Positions 42,910 through 61,366 of a DNA stretch of 64,000 nucleotides are shown here, piece after piece. The number at the start of each line of letters is the position of its first letter. Within the stretch, counting starts at the first letter, position 1. A program made the position numbers and the translations under genes. The notes under the pieces were generated by a model that saw only the letters and a list, made by a program, of their open reading frames with translations, searched no databases and was not told the origin of the DNA. Origin of the DNA: Gemmatimonadota bacterium (GTDB lineage: Bacteria > Gemmatimonadota > Gemmatimonadetes > Gemmatimonadales > GWC2-71-9); NCBI GenBank assembly GCA_040388535.1, contig JAZKBR010000001.1, positions 544,821 through 608,820 on the forward strand, read 5' to 3'.

Positions 42910-47274
<4,365 letters not shown>

Positions 47275-47340
47275 ACAGTGCTCTCCAATGCCATTGATCC
47301 GCCACTCCGGCGGCCTCACCCCGTGCGGGTGAGAAATTCC

Positions 47341-47445
47341 CTGGCGCTGGCGACTCGGCTGGCGTGGCATCGGGTGATCCCGAGGCGGTAGCTCCGTGGT
47401 TCTGCGTCCCACCCTTTCGGGTGGTTTGCTCTGGGCAGCGGCCAC
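47341..47445 (-). ncRNA. GEMM-I (cyclic di-GMP-I) riboswitch-like aptamer before the protease gene
   Basis: On the minus strand the core GAGCAAACC, a perfect ACCC-GAAA-GGGU hairpin, then GGGACGCAGAACC and ACGGAGCUACC match the family consensus (GCAAACC, GAAA tetraloop, GGGACGCAAAGCC). A second stem UCGGG-AUCA-CCCGA and a 3' part GCCGAGUCGCCAGCG complete the fold; CGCUG with CAGCG closes P1. The base matching ligand-contact G20 of the Vc2 aptamer is G. A hairpin CUCACCC-GCAC-GGGGUGAG (47315-47335) before the ribosome site may be the expression platform. One deviation is GCAGA where the family has GCAAA. Confidence 0.78.
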
Positions 47446-47466
47446 AACGTGGCGTCAACATATTGA

Positions 47467-47480
47467 GCAAAAGCTTTGCC
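47467..47480 (-). promoter_or_regulatory. sigma-54 promoter of the protease/riboswitch unit
   Basis: On the minus strand TTGGCAAAGCTTTTGCT: GG and GC ten bases apart, TTGGCA at -24 and a perfect TTGCT at -12. The predicted start, near 47455, lies about ten bases before the riboswitch aptamer, as expected for a functional leader. Confidence 0.72.
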
Positions 47481-47837
47481 AACTCTTACTCCCTGTAAAT
47501 CATCGGCTTAAGGCTGTTTTTCTGTATGATTTCTGGTGTAGCTGTATGATTATCTTACAATCTCCTACGAGAGCTTCCGCAATTGCTCCCCTCGGCCGCA
47601 TCCGGGGAGGGCGCTGTGCCGCGTGGCAGGACGCCAACGCCGCTCGGCTGGAGATAGTGTGGCGCGATTGCAACAAAGAGGGCGTGCGTGGGTGCAACGA
47701 GACCACAACCTGGCGATGCCGTCCTCGGGGATCGTGCTGACATCCCGGCCACGACCAACTCGCTAAAACATTCAAATACAACGAGTTACCAGCGGCGTCT
47801 CGGTCGCGGTTCGATCCTTGGCATGAACGGATTTCGT

Positions 47838-47919: not shown

Positions 47920-48675
47920 ATGAAGCAGATCTTCCGTAATGCAGTCGGAGTGGCAGTCGCGGCGATGGCCGTGGTGGCGCCGCTCTCCGCCTCAACCGGC
48001 GACGGTCATTTCCAGCTGCTCAGCAAGGCGGCCCCGAGCGACTGGTTCAACCGGACCGGTGAATTCACGGCCTCGTACAATCCGATCACCCTGCCGACCA
48101 ACACCGCCTTCTCGGTGTTCTGCGTCGACCGGACCGGCTCGATTACGCCGGGCGACAACTACGATGTCTGGGTGAGCGAGATCGCGGCTGGCCCGCTCTC
48201 GAACACCGAGCTCGGCGGCGCCGGTAACCCGGATGCTTACGAGATCTATCGTCGTCAGGCCTTCCTGGTGCAGACCTACTTCGCGATGGGTGGCAACACC
48301 GGCCTCACCGGCAGCGAGAATGACTGGCAGTTCGCGATCTGGGGCCTGAAGGAAGCGGGCGGTCTCGGCGCGACCGCAGCGAGCTTCTTCGCCGCGTTCG
48401 ATGCCCAGGGCACTCTGGCGTGGAACATCATCGTGGCGACCGGCGCCCTCGGCGCAGCCGGCGCGGCGTTCGATGCAACCGACTGGCGCGTGATCACTGA
48501 CGCCAGCAACGACTGCCTCAACAAGGATGGTGGCCCGGCCAAGTGCCAGGAACTGATCTTCAAGAACGGCTCGCCGCCGGAAGAGATCGTGCCGGAGCCG
48601 GCGACGATGTCGCTGCTGGCGATGGGCCTGGCGGGTATGGCCGGTGCAGGCGTCCGCCGCCGGAAGCAGAAGTAG
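47920..48675 (+). CDS. PEP-CTERM surface protein, 251 aa
   Basis: A secreted protein with a signal peptide (VGVAVAAMAVVAPLSAST, about 9-26) and a C-terminal PEP-CTERM sorting tail starting near residue 224: VPEPATMSLLAMGLAGMA, then a short hydrophobic end and RRRKQK. The exosortase is expected to cut near V-P-E-P and release or anchor the protein. The middle domain is Gly/Ala-rich with NDWQFAIWGLKEAGG and two possible Cys pairs; no known function. GGAGAG precedes the ATG by 9 bases. A sigma-54 promoter and a strong terminator flank it, so it is a single-gene unit. Its tail is identical over 18 residues to that of the protein at 57666. Confidence 0.93.
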   Translation: MKQIFRNAVGVAVAAMAVVAPLSASTGDGHFQLLSKAAPSDWFNRTGEFTASYNPITLPTNTAFSVFCVDRTGSITPGDNYDVWVSEIAAGPLSNTELGGAGNPDAYEIYRRQAFLVQTYFAMGGNTGLTGSENDWQFAIWGLKEAGGLGATAASFFAAFDAQGTLAWNIIVATGALGAAGAAFDATDWRVITDASNDCLNKDGGPAKCQELIFKNGSPPEEIVPEPATMSLLAMGLAGMAGAGVRRRKQK

Positions 48676-49766: not shown

Positions 49767-50777
49767 GTGACTCTCACACCGTGGTTCCGCCGACTCGGGC
49801 TGCTCTCGCTCGCCGCTGTTGCACTCAGCTATCTGCTCACCTGTCAGCTCGGTGACCGCATCTGGTGGGCTCTCCCCTTTCTCTTCGGCCCGCGCTGGCT
49901 GCTGGCGATGCCGCTCGTCGGTGTGGTGCCCTGGCTGCTGGTTCGACCTCGAGAGGCGTGGCTGCCGGTGTGCGTGGGTGCGGCGCTCACCTGTTTCGGC
50001 TTGCTCGACGTGCGAATCGGAACGGGTCGGCTCACGGCAGGCGCCGGTGTACCGGTGCGGGTGGTGGAGTTGAACGCCGGTGCCGGCAGTGGTGGCAACA
50101 CTCCAGCGGCGAATGTCGTCGCCGAACTACAGCGGCTTTCCCCCGACGTCGCGGTCTTCGCTGAATGCGGCAATGGTCCGGTGCGTGCCGCGCTGAGTGC
50201 GCTGCCGGGATACCATTTCAAGGTGAGCGAGACGTCACTTTGCCTGTTGTCGCGCGGCGAGATTCTGGAGTGGAGCGAGCGTGACCCGATGGATATCTGG
50301 AAGGAGGGCGGCTCGGGGGCGATCGTGCGCGCGAAGGTGCAGACCGCTGCTGGCCCACTTCGCGTAGGACTGGTTCACCTCGAGACCCCGCGGGACGCGC
50401 TCGATAACTACGCCGATCTCTCTACTATCCCGACTCTTGGTGATGTCACCCGCGCCAACATCCGGCAGCGCGAGGAAGAGTCGACCAAGGCGAGGGAGTG
50501 GATCCTGCCGACGAGTGACCAGCCGACAATCGTGGTGGGTGACTTCAACCTGCCGATCGAAAGCGCGATCTTTCGTCGTCACTGGAGCGACTTGCGCGAC
50601 GCGTTCAGTCGGGGCGGCCTCGGGAGTGGACACACGAAGCGGACGCGCTGGTGGGGCGTCCGCATCGACCACATTCTCACGACTTCGGAAATCGGCACCA
50701 GCCGGAGTTTTACCGGCCGGGACGTCGGATCAGATCACCTGCCACTCGTGGCGGACCTGATCATCCCTGCCCACTAG
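49767..50777 (+). CDS. membrane-anchored endonuclease/exonuclease/phosphatase family protein
   Basis: A 336-residue protein with two or three N-terminal membrane helices (about 9-25, 30-55 and 65-80) and a C-terminal EEP domain. Motifs are VVELNAG at the start of the domain, VAVFAEC with the metal Glu, TIVVGDFNLPIES, VRIDHILTT and GSDHLPLVADL with the catalytic Asp-His pair. The family includes nucleases, phospholipases and sphingomyelinases; the membrane anchor suggests a lipid or periplasmic substrate. It is coupled to the GT2 gene. Its stop TAG overlaps the stop of the convergent lipoprotein gene by two bases (CTAG). Confidence 0.82.
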   Translation: MTLTPWFRRLGLLSLAAVALSYLLTCQLGDRIWWALPFLFGPRWLLAMPLVGVVPWLLVRPREAWLPVCVGAALTCFGLLDVRIGTGRLTAGAGVPVRVVELNAGAGSGGNTPAANVVAELQRLSPDVAVFAECGNGPVRAALSALPGYHFKVSETSLCLLSRGEILEWSERDPMDIWKEGGSGAIVRAKVQTAAGPLRVGLVHLETPRDALDNYADLSTIPTLGDVTRANIRQREEESTKAREWILPTSDQPTIVVGDFNLPIESAIFRRHWSDLRDAFSRGGLGSGHTKRTRWWGVRIDHILTTSEIGTSRSFTGRDVGSDHLPLVADLIIPAH

Positions 50778-51214
50778 CGAATCACGACCGCGCGATAACC
50801 GGTGAGATCCTGCAGCGCGTAGCTCCCGCGCGCGGCAGCGGCGGAGACGGAGGCGCGGAGTTCGCTGGTCCGTGAGATGTCACGCAGGTGCACCTGGGCA
50901 ACGGTACCATTGGCGATGGCGCCGGTCACGACCATATCGGCGCTCGAGTTGCCGACGACAGTGAAGCCGTCATAACCAACGATGCGCGCCGAATCGACAC
51001 CGGGACCACTCACCGAGAGCTGTAGCGCGCCGTCATCGGCGCGGGGGGTCGCGATCTGGATGGTCAGCCAGCCAGCAGTCGGGGCCACCGGGGTGACCGG
51101 GGTGCTGCCGGTCGGGCTCTGTCCGCCGCACGCGGCGAGAACCAGGGCAGCAACGGCCAGGATGGATCGGTGGTTCGACGCGATCCGGCGGGACAGCTTG
51201 AAGGTGTAGGTCAT
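50774..51214 (-). CDS. small lipoprotein, 146 aa, under a GEMM-like riboswitch
   Basis: The signal peptide ends in the lipobox VLAACGG (Cys near residue 30), so the protein should be lipid-anchored. The rest reads as one Ig-like beta domain: WLTIQIATPRADDGALQLSVSGPGVDSARI, then FTVVGNSSADMVVTGAIANGTVAQVHLRDISR, ending in LQDLTGYRAVVIR. This resembles cohesin-like/Gemmatimonad secreted domains without a named function. A GEMM-I-like element lies immediately upstream (51249-51350), so expression may respond to a cyclic dinucleotide. Its terminal TAG overlaps that of the convergent nuclease-like gene. Confidence 0.72.
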   Translation of the reverse strand: MTYTFKLSRRIASNHRSILAVAALVLAACGGQSPTGSTPVTPVAPTAGWLTIQIATPRADDGALQLSVSGPGVDSARIVGYDGFTVVGNSSADMVVTGAIANGTVAQVHLRDISRTSELRASVSAAAARGSYALQDLTGYRAVVIR

Positions 51215-51248: not shown

Positions 51249-51350
51249 CTCGCTGGCGGCTGGGCGGGCATGCCGTCGGGATCCTCTCCGTCGGGGTAGC
51301 TCCCTGGCTCTGCGACCCCCGGTTTCCCTGGGTGTGCTCTGGGCAGCGTG
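51249..51350 (-). ncRNA. second GEMM-I-like riboswitch, before the lipoprotein gene
   Basis: The minus strand shares the plan of the copy at 47341: CUGCCCAGAGCACACC, a CCCAGG-GAAA-CCGGGG hairpin (one mismatch), GGGUCGCAGAGCC, then GGAGCUACC and a 3' CGCCAGCG that closes P1. It differs from the family at GCACACC and GCAGA. The distance to the ATG is about 35 bases. A weak sigma-54-like site (51395-51408, minus: CGGTCCATGAATTGCC) could start it. Confidence 0.62.
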
Positions 51351-51583
51351 CTTCGGTTTTTCGGCGGTCACGAGTGCCGCTGTTCATTTCTATGGCAATT
51401 CATGGACCGTTCTGGGCCCCCTCGGGCCTCGTGATCTAAGTATCGGACGGACAATAACTTGGCTGTAGGGTGTGGTTTAATTGACTGACTTGAAAGGTGA
51501 CGAACCGTTCACTAATTTGACGATATGCCAGCGGCTCGGTCCGGCGCTATGGCGAAGCAAGGGACTGGAGTGAAGCCGAACCG

Positions 51584-58448: not shown

Positions 58449-58811
58449 ATGCTGCCTCTTCCTTCGGAATGTGAACTGCGCCAAGAAGCTGATGTCGTCG
58501 GGCTGCAACATGGAACTGGTGGAACCACCCTGTTGCGCCCGAACAACAAACTGTTACGGGGGTGCCACAGCACAAACATCGTAAGTCGTTGATTTACCGT
58601 AGCCTAGGCCACCACGAATGCTCCTCCTTGCATCTTTCGGACCAAGAAAAAGGGGGAAGGGGGAAGGGGGAAGGGGAAGGGGAAGGAGAAGGGAGAAGCG
58701 GGAAGGGTGATGGGAGTCGCCTCTAGTCTCTCATCTCCCTTCTCCCTTCTCCCTTCTCCCTTCTCCCTTCTCGCCTCTCCTCTTCTGGGGGGAGGTACAT
58801 TTCGACACACC
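58449..58811. other. 363-base divergent intergenic region with inverted microsatellite
   Basis: It holds the upstream region of the second PEP-CTERM gene (about 58450-58620) with a half sigma-54 site, and the inverted repeat array 58645-58779. No other gene is seen. Confidence 0.6.
58645..58779. repeat. third inverted array of GAGAAGG-type 7-bp repeats
   Basis: The left arm (58645-58704) is degenerate, running AAGGGGG/AAGGGG units into GAGAAGG. The right arm (58729-58779) has about six TTCTCCC units. Unlike the other two arrays it lies between divergent genes, upstream of a histidine kinase, so it is not just a terminator. Confidence 0.8.
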
Positions 58812-59993
58812 GTGACCCGGCTCTCCTTCCGCACCCGTCTCTTCCTCGCGCTCTTCGCCGTGAGTGCCATCCCTGTCGCGCTGATCAGCGGCGCGGGGCT
58901 GGTATACATCCGGACGCAGAAGCTGGTCAACGGAACTGGAAACATCCCCGATATCGTCCGGACCTGGACCACCGCCCGCAAGGAGCTGGCCCGGGTCCCC
59001 CTCTCGGACGGGGCTGCGCTCGCCGTGGCTCGACACGACTCCACGCTGACCTACGTGGTGATCGCGAGCCAACAGAAGCAGCTGCTCGCGAAGAACTTTA
59101 CGGAACAGGGCCCCTTTGTCTTTGTGGCGGCGGCGCTGGTACTGCTTTTCGGCGTCGGCGTCGTCGGAGTCACTCTCTCACGACAATTCTCTGCGCCACT
59201 CGACGAGGTGGTAGACTGGACCGACCGGATCGGGCGACACGCCGAATTGCCGGACAAGGCCGAACAAAGGGCTATCCCGGAATTTTCGGCGCTCCAGGCG
59301 GCGCTCCGTGACCTTCAGCGTGGCCTCGAACAGGCTCGCCTCGTCGAACTCGAATCGGAGCGATTGCGTGCTTTCGGTGAGGTCGCGCGGCGGGTCGCCC
59401 ACGAGATGAAGAATCCGCTCACCCCGATCCGGCTCGCCGTACTCCAACTCTCACGCACGGCGACGCCTGAAGCCCGCGAGGTGCTCGACATCATCGCCGT
59501 CGAGTCATCGCGGCTCGAGGCGATGGCGCGCGAATTCGCCGAGCTTGGTCGCCTTCCCGAAGGGATCGCGGCACCGGTGGACCTGCAGGAATTGCTGGTC
59601 GACCTGCTGCGAAGCGCGGTCCCGGAATCGATGACGCACGAGCTGGTGGCAAACGGCGCGCTTCCGTCGATCGAAGGGCACTACGATCCGCTGCGACGCG
59701 CCTTCAGCAACCTGCTCCGCAATGCGGTCGAGGCGTGCGAAGGGAAAGGCAACATTGCCGTGACCCTGCGGCACGTCGACAGCCAGGTCGAAGTGCAGAT
59801 CAGTGACAACGGGCCGGGCATCGCGATCGCGAAGCGGGAACAGATCTTCCAGCCGTACTACACCGACAAGGGCGACGGTACCGGCCTTGGACTCGCCATC
59901 GTCCGTCAGACCATTGAACAGCACCACGGCAGTATTGCCGTCACGGACACACCCGGTGGCGGTGCCACTTTCCTCGTCCGGTTTCCCGTATGA
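58812..59993 (+). CDS. membrane sensor histidine kinase (NtrY-like)
   Basis: A 393-residue kinase: membrane segment 1 LFLALFAVSAIPVALISGAGLVYI (about 10-33), a periplasmic loop of about 65 residues, membrane segment 2 FVFVAAALVLLFGVGVVGVTL (about 102-122), a HAMP-like linker, H-box VARRVAHEMKNPLTPIRLAV with His197, and an ATPase domain with NLLRNAVEAC, ISDNGPGI and GTGLGLAIVRQTIEQHHGSI. The arrangement is NtrY/NtrB-like. GTG 58812 is chosen; starts further upstream would translate repeat-derived Ser/Pro/Phe/Leu sequence. The stop overlaps the regulator ATG by 4 bases. Confidence 0.88.
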   Translation: MTRLSFRTRLFLALFAVSAIPVALISGAGLVYIRTQKLVNGTGNIPDIVRTWTTARKELARVPLSDGAALAVARHDSTLTYVVIASQQKQLLAKNFTEQGPFVFVAAALVLLFGVGVVGVTLSRQFSAPLDEVVDWTDRIGRHAELPDKAEQRAIPEFSALQAALRDLQRGLEQARLVELESERLRAFGEVARRVAHEMKNPLTPIRLAVLQLSRTATPEAREVLDIIAVESSRLEAMAREFAELGRLPEGIAAPVDLQELLVDLLRSAVPESMTHELVANGALPSIEGHYDPLRRAFSNLLRNAVEACEGKGNIAVTLRHVDSQVEVQISDNGPGIAIAKREQIFQPYYTDKGDGTGLGLAIVRQTIEQHHGSIAVTDTPGGGATFLVRFPV

Positions 59994-61366
59994 CCACGCG
60001 CATCCTGATCATCGATGACGAGACCAACATCCGCCGCATGGTGGGTGCCCTGCTCAAATCGGAAGGGTTCGAGGTCGCCGAAGCGCCCAACGGGAATGCC
60101 GGGTTGCTGGCGCTTCCCGAAGTGGAGCCCGACATCATCCTGCTCGACCTGATGATGCCGCCCGGCCCCGACGGTCTCGCGACCCTCGAAAAGATTCGCG
60201 CCGGCGACACCGAGATCCCGGTGATCATGATGAGTGGCAAGGCGCAACTCGCCGATGCCGTGCGTGCCGTGCAGATGGGCGCATTCCAGTTCCTCGAGAA
60301 ACCGCTCGCTCCGGAATCGCTTCTGGTCGCACTCCGTTCGGCCGAGACGCTGGTGCGGACCCAGGCCGAGAATCGTTCGTTGCGTGCTGCCCTCGGTCCG
60401 CAGCCGGATCTCGTGGGCACCTCAGCGGAAATCGAGCTGGTGCGTCGGCTGATCGCGCAGGTCGGCCCGACTGATGCGCGCGTGCTGGTGCTGGGTGAAT
60501 CCGGCACCGGCAAGGAGCTGGTCGCCAATGCCATCCATCGCCGCTCGGCGCGAGCCCGGTTGCCGTTCGTCTCGGTGAATTGCGCCGCGATTCCCCGCGA
60601 CCTGGTCGAGAGCGAGATGTTCGGCCACGAACGTGGTGCCTTCACTGGCGCGACCGCGCGCCGCATCGGGCGCTTCGAACTCGCCGACACCGGCACGCTC
60701 TTCCTGGACGAAGTCGGCGACCTGCAACTCGATGCCCAGGCCAAGCTCCTGCGCGTGCTCGAGAGTGGCGAGATTCAGCGGATCGGCGCCGAGCGAAGTC
60801 AGCGCGTCGACGTGCGTGTCGTCTCGGCAACGAATCGCCGACTCGAGGAGGCCGTGGCGCAGGGTTCCTTCCGCGAGGATCTGTATTTCCGGCTCAACGT
60901 CTTTCCGATCGAGCTGCCGCCATTGCGTCAGCGCCTCGGCGACTTGCCCGAGCTGGTGATGCACCTGGCCGCCCGGCTGCGACCGCGACACCCGCCGCAG
61001 TTCACCCCCGATGCCCTCGAAGCGCTCGCACGCCACAGCTGGCCGGGGAACATCCGCGAACTCGCCAACATCGTGGAGCGTCTCGCCATCGTTGCGGGTG
61101 ACGAGGTCACGGCCGAACTCGTCCCGCACGTCCTGCGCAACACGGCTGCTGCGACGCCGTCGTCGAGCGGCGATCCCTCGCCGGGCTTCGTCGACGACGG
61201 GCGCGGCCTGACCGATCGACTCGATGATCACGAACGCGGGCTGATCTCCGGAGCGCTGAGTCAGGCCAGCGGCAACATTGCCGAGGCAGCACGCATGCTG
61301 AAAACTGATCGTGGCAACCTGTATCGCCGGATGCGCCGACTCGGCATCCGCGGAGGGGTCGAATGA
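59990..61366 (+). CDS. NtrX/NtrC-type sigma-54-dependent response regulator
   Basis: A 458-residue activator and cognate of the preceding kinase. The receiver carries Asp53 in DIILLDLMMPPG and Lys in FLEKPL. The AAA+ domain has Walker A GESGTGKE (169-176), GAFTGA (216-221), and FLDEVGDLQL with RIGAERSQRVDVRV. A Fis-like C-terminal helix-turn-helix (NIAEAARMLKTDRGNLYRRMRRLGI) binds DNA. Because GAFTGA is intact it can activate sigma-54 polymerase; NtrX proteins of this layout often control envelope genes. The next gene, an outer-membrane protein, overlaps its stop by 4 bases and may be its target. Confidence 0.92.
   Translation: MTTRILIIDDETNIRRMVGALLKSEGFEVAEAPNGNAGLLALPEVEPDIILLDLMMPPGPDGLATLEKIRAGDTEIPVIMMSGKAQLADAVRAVQMGAFQFLEKPLAPESLLVALRSAETLVRTQAENRSLRAALGPQPDLVGTSAEIELVRRLIAQVGPTDARVLVLGESGTGKELVANAIHRRSARARLPFVSVNCAAIPRDLVESEMFGHERGAFTGATARRIGRFELADTGTLFLDEVGDLQLDAQAKLLRVLESGEIQRIGAERSQRVDVRVVSATNRRLEEAVAQGSFREDLYFRLNVFPIELPPLRQRLGDLPELVMHLAARLRPRHPPQFTPDALEALARHSWPGNIRELANIVERLAIVAGDEVTAELVPHVLRNTAAATPSSSGDPSPGFVDDGRGLTDRLDDHERGLISGALSQASGNIAEAARMLKTDRGNLYRRMRRLGIRGGVE

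Follow-up and report, generated by a model that had tools for sequence, protein, structure and literature searches.

The closest described counterparts of the locus analysed here are the GEMM-Ib riboswitches of Geobacter (pgcA and others), which carry A at position 20 of the aptamer (A20). According to the accessible part of PMC6456294, the exchange A20G converted such a cGAMP riboswitch into a c-di-GMP one, and cGAMP is made by Hypr GGDEF enzymes, in which a Ser replaces an Asp. An A20 aptamer of Desulfobacca showed better cGAMP binding by in-line probing (available part of PMC9481103), and position 20 has been described as a factor in selectivity that stops short of a strict filter (available part of PMC9262584). 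A second precedent concerns the promoter: sigma-54 promoters precede PEP-CTERM genes in Proteobacteria, together with the PrsK/PrsR pair (Haft 2006, PMC1569441, in its accessible part).

Here, I describe a locus of a soil bacterium of the Gemmatimonadota at which an A20 riboswitch and a putative sigma-54 promoter meet in front of a gene for a secreted protease (Table 1). The window, that is the whole 64-kb stretch of DNA that was analysed, is rich in polysaccharide genes and belongs to a genome (G000) of 3.72 Mb that is 98% complete.

Table 1. Features of the subtilase and lipoprotein loci, in window coordinates
Feature	Position	Strand	Basis or remark
Secreted subtilase (S8) gene, eight BACON-like repeats, C-terminal DRDGNRNGGYDLGDLLAWV motif, 1454 aa	42910..47274	-	Pfam, translation
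Aptamer-to-start-codon stretch (expression platform), 72 nt, no T tract	47274..47345	-	
GEMM-I (c-di-GMP-I) riboswitch aptamer, A20 variant	47346..47440	-	RF01051, 49 bits
Aptamer position 48 = G, companion of A20	47402	-	A20/G48 pairing counts
Aptamer position 20 = A, cGAMP-selecting base	47430	-	RF01051 model position 11
-24/-12 (sigma-54) promoter element TGGCAAAGCTTTTGC	47467..47481	-	top score of the window, 22 of 24
Candidate activator site: pair of 10-nt direct repeats CTGTATGATT with 20-bp spacing	47522..47551	.	short two-copy repeats are often chance
Weak sigma-54-like site TGGCACAGCAGGTGC before the PEP-CTERM gene	47837	+	score 21; 5.3 such expected by chance in the window
Divergent PEP-CTERM protein gene	47920..48675	+	PF07589, 26.4 bits, cut-off 20.7
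Lipoprotein-like gene behind the second riboswitch, 146 aa	50774..51214	-	no Pfam family
Second A20 GEMM-I riboswitch of the window	51252..51348	-	pattern match in genome scan
Probable -24/-12 element GGTCCATGAATTGC serving the second riboswitch; start at ~51383	51395..51408	-	
Genes of a possible activator pair: a histidine kinase and an NtrC-type sigma-54 activator	58707..61366	+	

The first-pass annotation had placed a GEMM-I riboswitch in the minus-strand leader of the protease gene, and the covariance-model search that it proposed (Rfam RF01051) bears this out. The match at 47346-47440(-) scores 49 bits against a gathering score of 35 (E 1.5e-6), spans model positions 1-87 of 87, takes in GAGCAAACC, the GAAA-capped P2, GGGACGCA and P3, and is the sole match above any Rfam gathering score in the window. 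The aptamer before the subtilase gene is thus confirmed as real and as a member of RF01051; a lineage model, R1, gives it 75.2 bits, this copy having been included in the training set. The base at 47430(-), which I take to be position 20 in Vc2 numbering, is the A of GEMM-Ib cGAMP riboswitches, and that at 47402(-), presumably position 48 in the same scheme, is a G.

Downstream, the same annotation had announced a secreted protease with eight modules, and the protein agrees with that description. Peptidase_S8 is found in its 1454 residues at E 2.4e-49 (168.6 bits, gathering cut-off 21.8) with the catalytic D, H and S motifs present, BACON_2 reaches 46.9 bits over the whole protein against a cut-off of 25, in four stretches, and eight BACON-like repeats can be counted, seven by regular expression and the eighth (KSWTTF) by eye. 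At its C-terminus, residues 1390-1420 and the ortholog of genome G078 (in locus L155) share a conserved motif, GNxNGxYDLGDxLAWV, which looks dockerin-like by eye; Pfam returns no match there at E up to 10. No viral relatives of the subtilase were confirmed.

Upstream of the aptamer lies TTGGCAAAGCTTTTGC, of the pattern TTGGCA-N6-TTGC, in which GG (47480-47479) at -24 and GC (47468-47467) at -12 stand at the right spacing, and whose end is 26 nt from the aptamer. On a hand-weighted consensus with a maximum of 24 it scores 22, the best among all window positions on both strands. A first-order Markov model puts the expected number of scores of at least 22 at 1.2 per 64 kb, so that a score this high on the correct strand and no more than 55 nt upstream has calculated odds near 5e-4; window-wide there is no overall enrichment, scores of at least 20 numbering 23 versus about 19 expected. 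The orthologous subtilase genes of two relatives, G080 and G078, each have an A20 aptamer and a -24/-12 element as well (TTGGCAGGATACTTGC and ATGGCACGTCAATTGA, respectively), the latter with TTGA at -12. Score, position and recurrence in relatives support the element as a real one, from which transcription would start at about 47455. The earlier prediction of a sigma-54 start upstream of the aptamer stands in this respect; the distance to the first aptamer base is 15 nt rather than the ten or so then given.

Sigma-54 promoters are absolutely activator-dependent, so that transcription of the subtilase gene from this element would need an NtrC-type activator. The genome has one rpoN, a gene found in 20 of 21 genomes (this one included), and nine full-length NtrC-type activator matches, two of them inside the window; a sigma-54 promoter would thus find both its sigma factor and an activator. 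The candidate activator of Table 1 corresponds to the genome match G000:C1:604822-606171. PrsR (TIGR02915) was rejected as the activator, the best protein of the genome reaching 393.1 of the 502.6 bits demanded and the window activator 364.8.

The subtilase promoter is not an isolated instance. GEMM-I is present in 80 of the 102 family genomes, and a family census comprises 161 distinct riboswitches from 139 loci; the loci taken were those first in the match list, so that weak matches are under-represented, and one row (L044, 26.2 bits) is doubtful. For 44 of the 161, a promoter score of at least 21 occurs 10-65 nt upstream; shuffled versions of these stretches would lead one to expect 0.64, and random windows drawn from the same loci 0.16. 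These 44 are spread over 17 genera and divide into 16 of 94 A20 and 28 of 67 G20 riboswitches; once upstream regions more than 60% alike are thinned out, 32 of 124 still have a strong promoter element. That the riboswitch is real and the -24/-12 element of the subtilase a chance match, the gene being served by an ordinary promoter, therefore appears most improbable, even if the start is known from prediction, about one such score is expected per 64 kb and 78 of the 94 family A20 leaders score below 21: strand and place are right (with the odds given above), the element is kept in the orthologs, it is strongly enriched before GEMM-I, and a simple scan of the minus strand from 47100 to 47700 finds no sigma-70-like site. 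On the strength of this simple scan, a sigma-70 promoter on the minus strand was rejected.

Beyond the family, an exact scan of named genomes, run without a scrambled control, returns at least 119 pairs of GEMM-I and sigma-54 element in many phyla. Among the matches listed, many belong to Deltaproteobacteria and Desulfobacterota, Nitrospirota, Rokubacteria and Gemmatimonadota, others such as Myxococcota, Acidobacteria and Brocadia being single records among the 80 listed pairs. Bases that the search pattern leaves free also agree with the promoter consensus in this set of at least 119, namely T before GG in 80/119 and T after TTGC in 78/119 (background 0.21); the base after GGCAY does not (A or G in 46/119). 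GEMM-I behind a predicted sigma-54 promoter is an arrangement not peculiar to the subtilase gene, for it recurs in the family and, in the above scan, in many phyla; owing to this recurrence it can be put to the test as a design of general use. The other above-cut-off riboswitch of the same genome, L001 (G000:C2:1265093-1265167), is a G20 one with a strong -24/-12 element, GGCACAGCGATTGC, 32 nt upstream. In the open-access literature searched, no paper was found joining GEMM-I with sigma-54 promoters or placing either of them in Gemmatimonadota, and the accessible parts of PMC12316311 and PMC2700814 mention neither the link nor either element in this phylum; the parts are known (the RF01051 aptamer, A20 and Hypr, sigma-54 promoters), while their combination was found described nowhere in that literature.

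The window contains a further riboswitch, before a lipoprotein-like gene. R1 recognises it at 64.8 bits (E 1.2e-12), this copy being outside the training set, and RF01051 gives it 29.3 bits, below the gathering score of 35 (E 0.018 in 11.5 kb); hence it is a relative of RF01051, yet no member by the Rfam cut-off. A GG-N10-GC element upstream is kept in five of the six genus leaders and lost in that of G081, and the lipoprotein orthologs of five relatives are located behind the same kind of riboswitch. For the lipoprotein, a cohesin-like fold finds no Pfam match at E up to 10; sequence matches in the PDB bearing on a dockerin/cohesin idea are weak and unspecific, and a structure model (pLDDT 51.5) is too poor for use. 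Many otherwise different A20-controlled proteins have in common, directly behind the riboswitch and ahead of the lipoprotein signal, an N-terminal segment resembling MTFKHKLxxRLALLK (L081, L104, L105, L156:4672-5121 and the window gene at 50774-51214).

As regards the ligand, the first-pass annotation had thought of c-di-GMP and matrix signalling. This is no longer the first guess, because aptamers which, like this one, have A20 are selective for cGAMP in Geobacter and Desulfobacca, according to the accessible parts of PMC6456294 and PMC9481103; 3',3'-cGAMP is likelier than c-di-GMP as the ligand of the aptamer at 47346-47440. Positions 20 and 48 go together: among parsed family riboswitches A20 is found with G48 in 80/93 and G20 with A48 in 65/66 (the unparsed rows L044 and L150 being left out), and in the cross-phylum set with G48 in 13/15 and with A48 in 86/86 (101 of at least 119 loci).

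Within the family, the distribution of cGAMP-making enzymes points the same way. In a sample of 395 genomes, a GGDEF motif with the Hypr Ser is found in 46 (all 24 loci inspected are true GGDEF domains, those displayed reading GGDEF and not GGEEF) and the A20 class in 56, the two occurring together in 27 (Fisher test, p 1.4e-14, kinship ignored). Within the family, A20 is present in 23 of 27 Hypr genomes versus 10 of 54 without the motif; outside the family the association is weak (4/19 versus 19/295, p 0.04, kinship again ignored). From the A20 class and the Hypr enzyme that accompanies it, signalling by cGAMP is predicted for Gemmatimonadota, of which no report was found in the open-access literature searched.

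The genus of the window departs from this trend, with A20 in six of ten genomes and the Hypr motif in none of the ten, and supplies six of the ten family exceptions (A20 without Hypr motif). Of the 11 GGDEF matches in the window's genome, nine carry Asp at the Hypr position, one Asn and one His; none carries Ser. No full-length relative of a Hypr enzyme is found in the genus, the longest match covering residues 156-453 of 459. A CD-NTase as the cGAMP source of this genome was rejected (no SMODS match at E up to 1), as were TCN-type Ser codons, whose five pattern matches in 102 genomes all lie outside a GGDEF context. Thus no cGAMP synthase, be it a Hypr GGDEF with Ser or a CD-NTase, is recognised in this 98% complete genome.

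Because the genus has no known cGAMP maker, it is possible, if clearly the less probable case, that the architecture is the same and that the A20 aptamer of the genus answers c-di-GMP, or both dinucleotides. The nine canonical Asp among the 11 GGDEF matches of the genome, with no recognised cGAMP synthase, favour this, as do the view of position 20 as a selectivity factor (in the part of PMC9262584 cited above) and the lack of a Hypr motif in 29 of the 56 genomes with A20 in the phylum sample. Conversely, A20 and G48 are kept in all nine subtilase and lipoprotein riboswitches of the genus, and the same genome keeps a G20 riboswitch (L001), as if two signals were read. A genus with A20 and no known cGAMP maker allows one to ask directly if the ligand can be predicted from A20 alone or if a further cyclase exists. 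At G000:C2:1175039-1175068 (L070), as in most family genomes, a GGDEF domain is joined to ferredoxin-like/iron-sulphur segments and has Asn at the Hypr position; as a marker of A20 genomes the Asn-type GGDEF was rejected, its ND..GH..GN proteins being found in most family members, with A20 or not.

The direction of control may be approached from the family leaders. A strand complementary to the 3' end of the aptamer (at least 7 nt) follows in 68 of 94 A20 leaders versus 15 in shuffled tails, and in 47 of those 68 a T-rich run comes after it (3 in shuffled tails), while for G20 leaders the counts are 7/66 and 2/66 against 9 and 0 in the control. In family A20 leaders ligand binding would therefore prevent a terminator, i.e., they would act as ON switches. 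In the minimum-energy fold of the subtilase leader, the platform strand UGGCGGAUC is able to pair with the 3' strand of the aptamer. On the minus strand this leader lacks both a T run and any terminator-like site. Its fold barely exceeds that of shuffled sequences in stability (z -1.17), and the two orthologs (G080 and G078) do not keep the downstream pairing; hence a non-terminator ON step, perhaps a translational one, may be inferred for it. An expression platform conserved in the genus was sought and not seen.

A leader without terminator, a platform without conservation and an expected ligand without a known maker are also what one would see if the riboswitch were decaying, the aptamer in the genus no longer controlling expression and persisting as a leader stem-loop. 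This is very unlikely, for in the nine genus copies the aptamer core and the outer P1 strands (CGCTG ... CAGC) are kept, while the P3 tips and flanks have diverged.

The preferred explanation, which I hold to be moderately probable, is that of a two-key ON control of the subtilase, with sigma-54-made mRNA and an A20 aptamer sensing 3',3'-cGAMP. RNA polymerase with sigma-54 would make the subtilase mRNA, whose first folded element would be the A20-type GEMM-I aptamer, most likely sensing 3',3'-cGAMP; with the ligand bound, the aptamer's 3' strand would be held in place and could not pair with the downstream leader, thereby permitting expression. Both keys, the activator signal and the nucleotide signal, would be required. 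The neighbouring lipoprotein gene would be driven by the same pair of elements, and related family leaders by their like for other surface proteins. The aptamer, its A20, the promoter element, their recurrence and the gene can be read in the DNA, whereas start site, ligand and ON direction are deduced. Joint control by promoter and riboswitch, as the first-pass annotation had it, remains the best reading in view of the aptamer, the -24/-12 element, rpoN, the nine activators and the BACON subtilase; what changes is c-di-GMP as the signal. Against the preferred explanation stand the small number of A20 riboswitches at a promoter score of at least 21 (only 16/94), the missing Hypr motif in the genus (0/10), with neither a Hypr-type Ser nor an SMODS cyclase in the genome and no full-length Hypr relative, the lack of a terminator, the low stability of the subtilase leader's fold and its unconserved pairing, the TTGA of G078 and, in the cross-phylum set, the base after GGCAY.

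As to purpose, seven of ten hand-picked A20-controlled proteins have Big_2 Ig-like domains, and so the A20 regulon looks like one of surface lipoproteins; surface and matrix remodelling would be its biological role.

Owing to the activator dependence of sigma-54, a second-messenger riboswitch placed at such a start gives a tight two-input switch. In a bolder version, which is unlikely as a whole, GEMM-I at sigma-54 starts would be a widespread, unremarked two-key device, in which the activator decides whether a transcript starts and the cyclic dinucleotide whether it is completed or translated; in Gemmatimonadota it would be wired to a cGAMP pathway serving surface proteins, and the genus, lacking Ser-type Hypr enzymes, would obtain its cGAMP from an unrecognised cyclase. 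A candidate for the latter would be the iron-sulphur GGDEF protein at G000:C2:1175039, whose Hypr position is Asn; proteins of this type are found in family members lacking A20 riboswitches too.

Other riboswitch arrangements are seen among the relatives. In nine leaders (L003, L005, L006, L007, L011, L024, L046, L048 and L060) an A20 aptamer and, 69-97 nt further on, a G20 aptamer precede a single gene, the order G20-then-A20 not being seen among family leaders; provided that A20 responds to cGAMP and G20 to c-di-GMP, such leaders would be two-signal gates. L080, L081 and L095 have two or three tandem A20 aptamers before one Ig-like lipoprotein gene. Furthermore, behind 23 G20 GEMM-I riboswitches with a -24/-12 score of at least 19 come a hairpin that hardly varies, CATCGGGTTCTAGGGCGCACGRTG, and a strong terminator (L017:1501-1720, L031, L051, L089, L097, L117 and 17 more; a 24th, L113, is more distant). 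Closed reading frames within these units, counted only where they end inside the stretch, measure between 0 and 88 aa, and none was seen to be shared by all; the hairpin has two-sided changes in 5 of 27 pairs and no Rfam match in the one locus searched deeply. The units are candidates for a small RNA under sigma-54 and c-di-GMP control. At L152:483-572 a selenocysteine tRNA adjoins a G20 riboswitch before a pilin-like gene.

Set against known systems, the subtilase-leader aptamer matches RF01051 (c-di-GMP-I/GEMM-I) in full and over the gathering score, and differs in having A20 and G48 and in sitting directly behind a predicted sigma-54 promoter. The c-di-GMP-I-GGC family (RF03167), of the same clan, matches it weakly (44.3 bits, under the gathering score of 59) and is passed by some G20 riboswitches of relatives. 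With the Geobacter GEMM-Ib riboswitches, as far as the accessible part of PMC6456294 goes, it shares A20 and a place upstream of secreted or surface proteins, and those are ON switches with a terminator, as in half of the family A20 leaders; the differences are that the host is a member of Gemmatimonadota, that secreted Ig-like, BACON and subtilase proteins take the place of cytochromes, that the genus is without Hypr GGDEF and that the subtilase leader is without terminator. No mention of sigma-54 with GEMM-Ib was found in that part of the paper. The PrsK/PrsR regulon, in the accessible part of PMC1569441, resembles this locus in its sigma-54 elements before exported-protein genes and in its exopolysaccharide locus, and a PEP-CTERM gene adjoins here too, whereas that part has no riboswitch and no regulator of the present genome reaches the PrsR cut-off. 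The A20-then-G20 pairing of the relatives is absent from Table 2 of PMC9481103, in the part available, and may be counted there among the c-di-GMP-I doublets. Like the tandem riboswitch logic gates of the same source, the subtilase transcript would be subject to two controls acting one after the other; unlike them, it would owe them to a promoter and a riboswitch.
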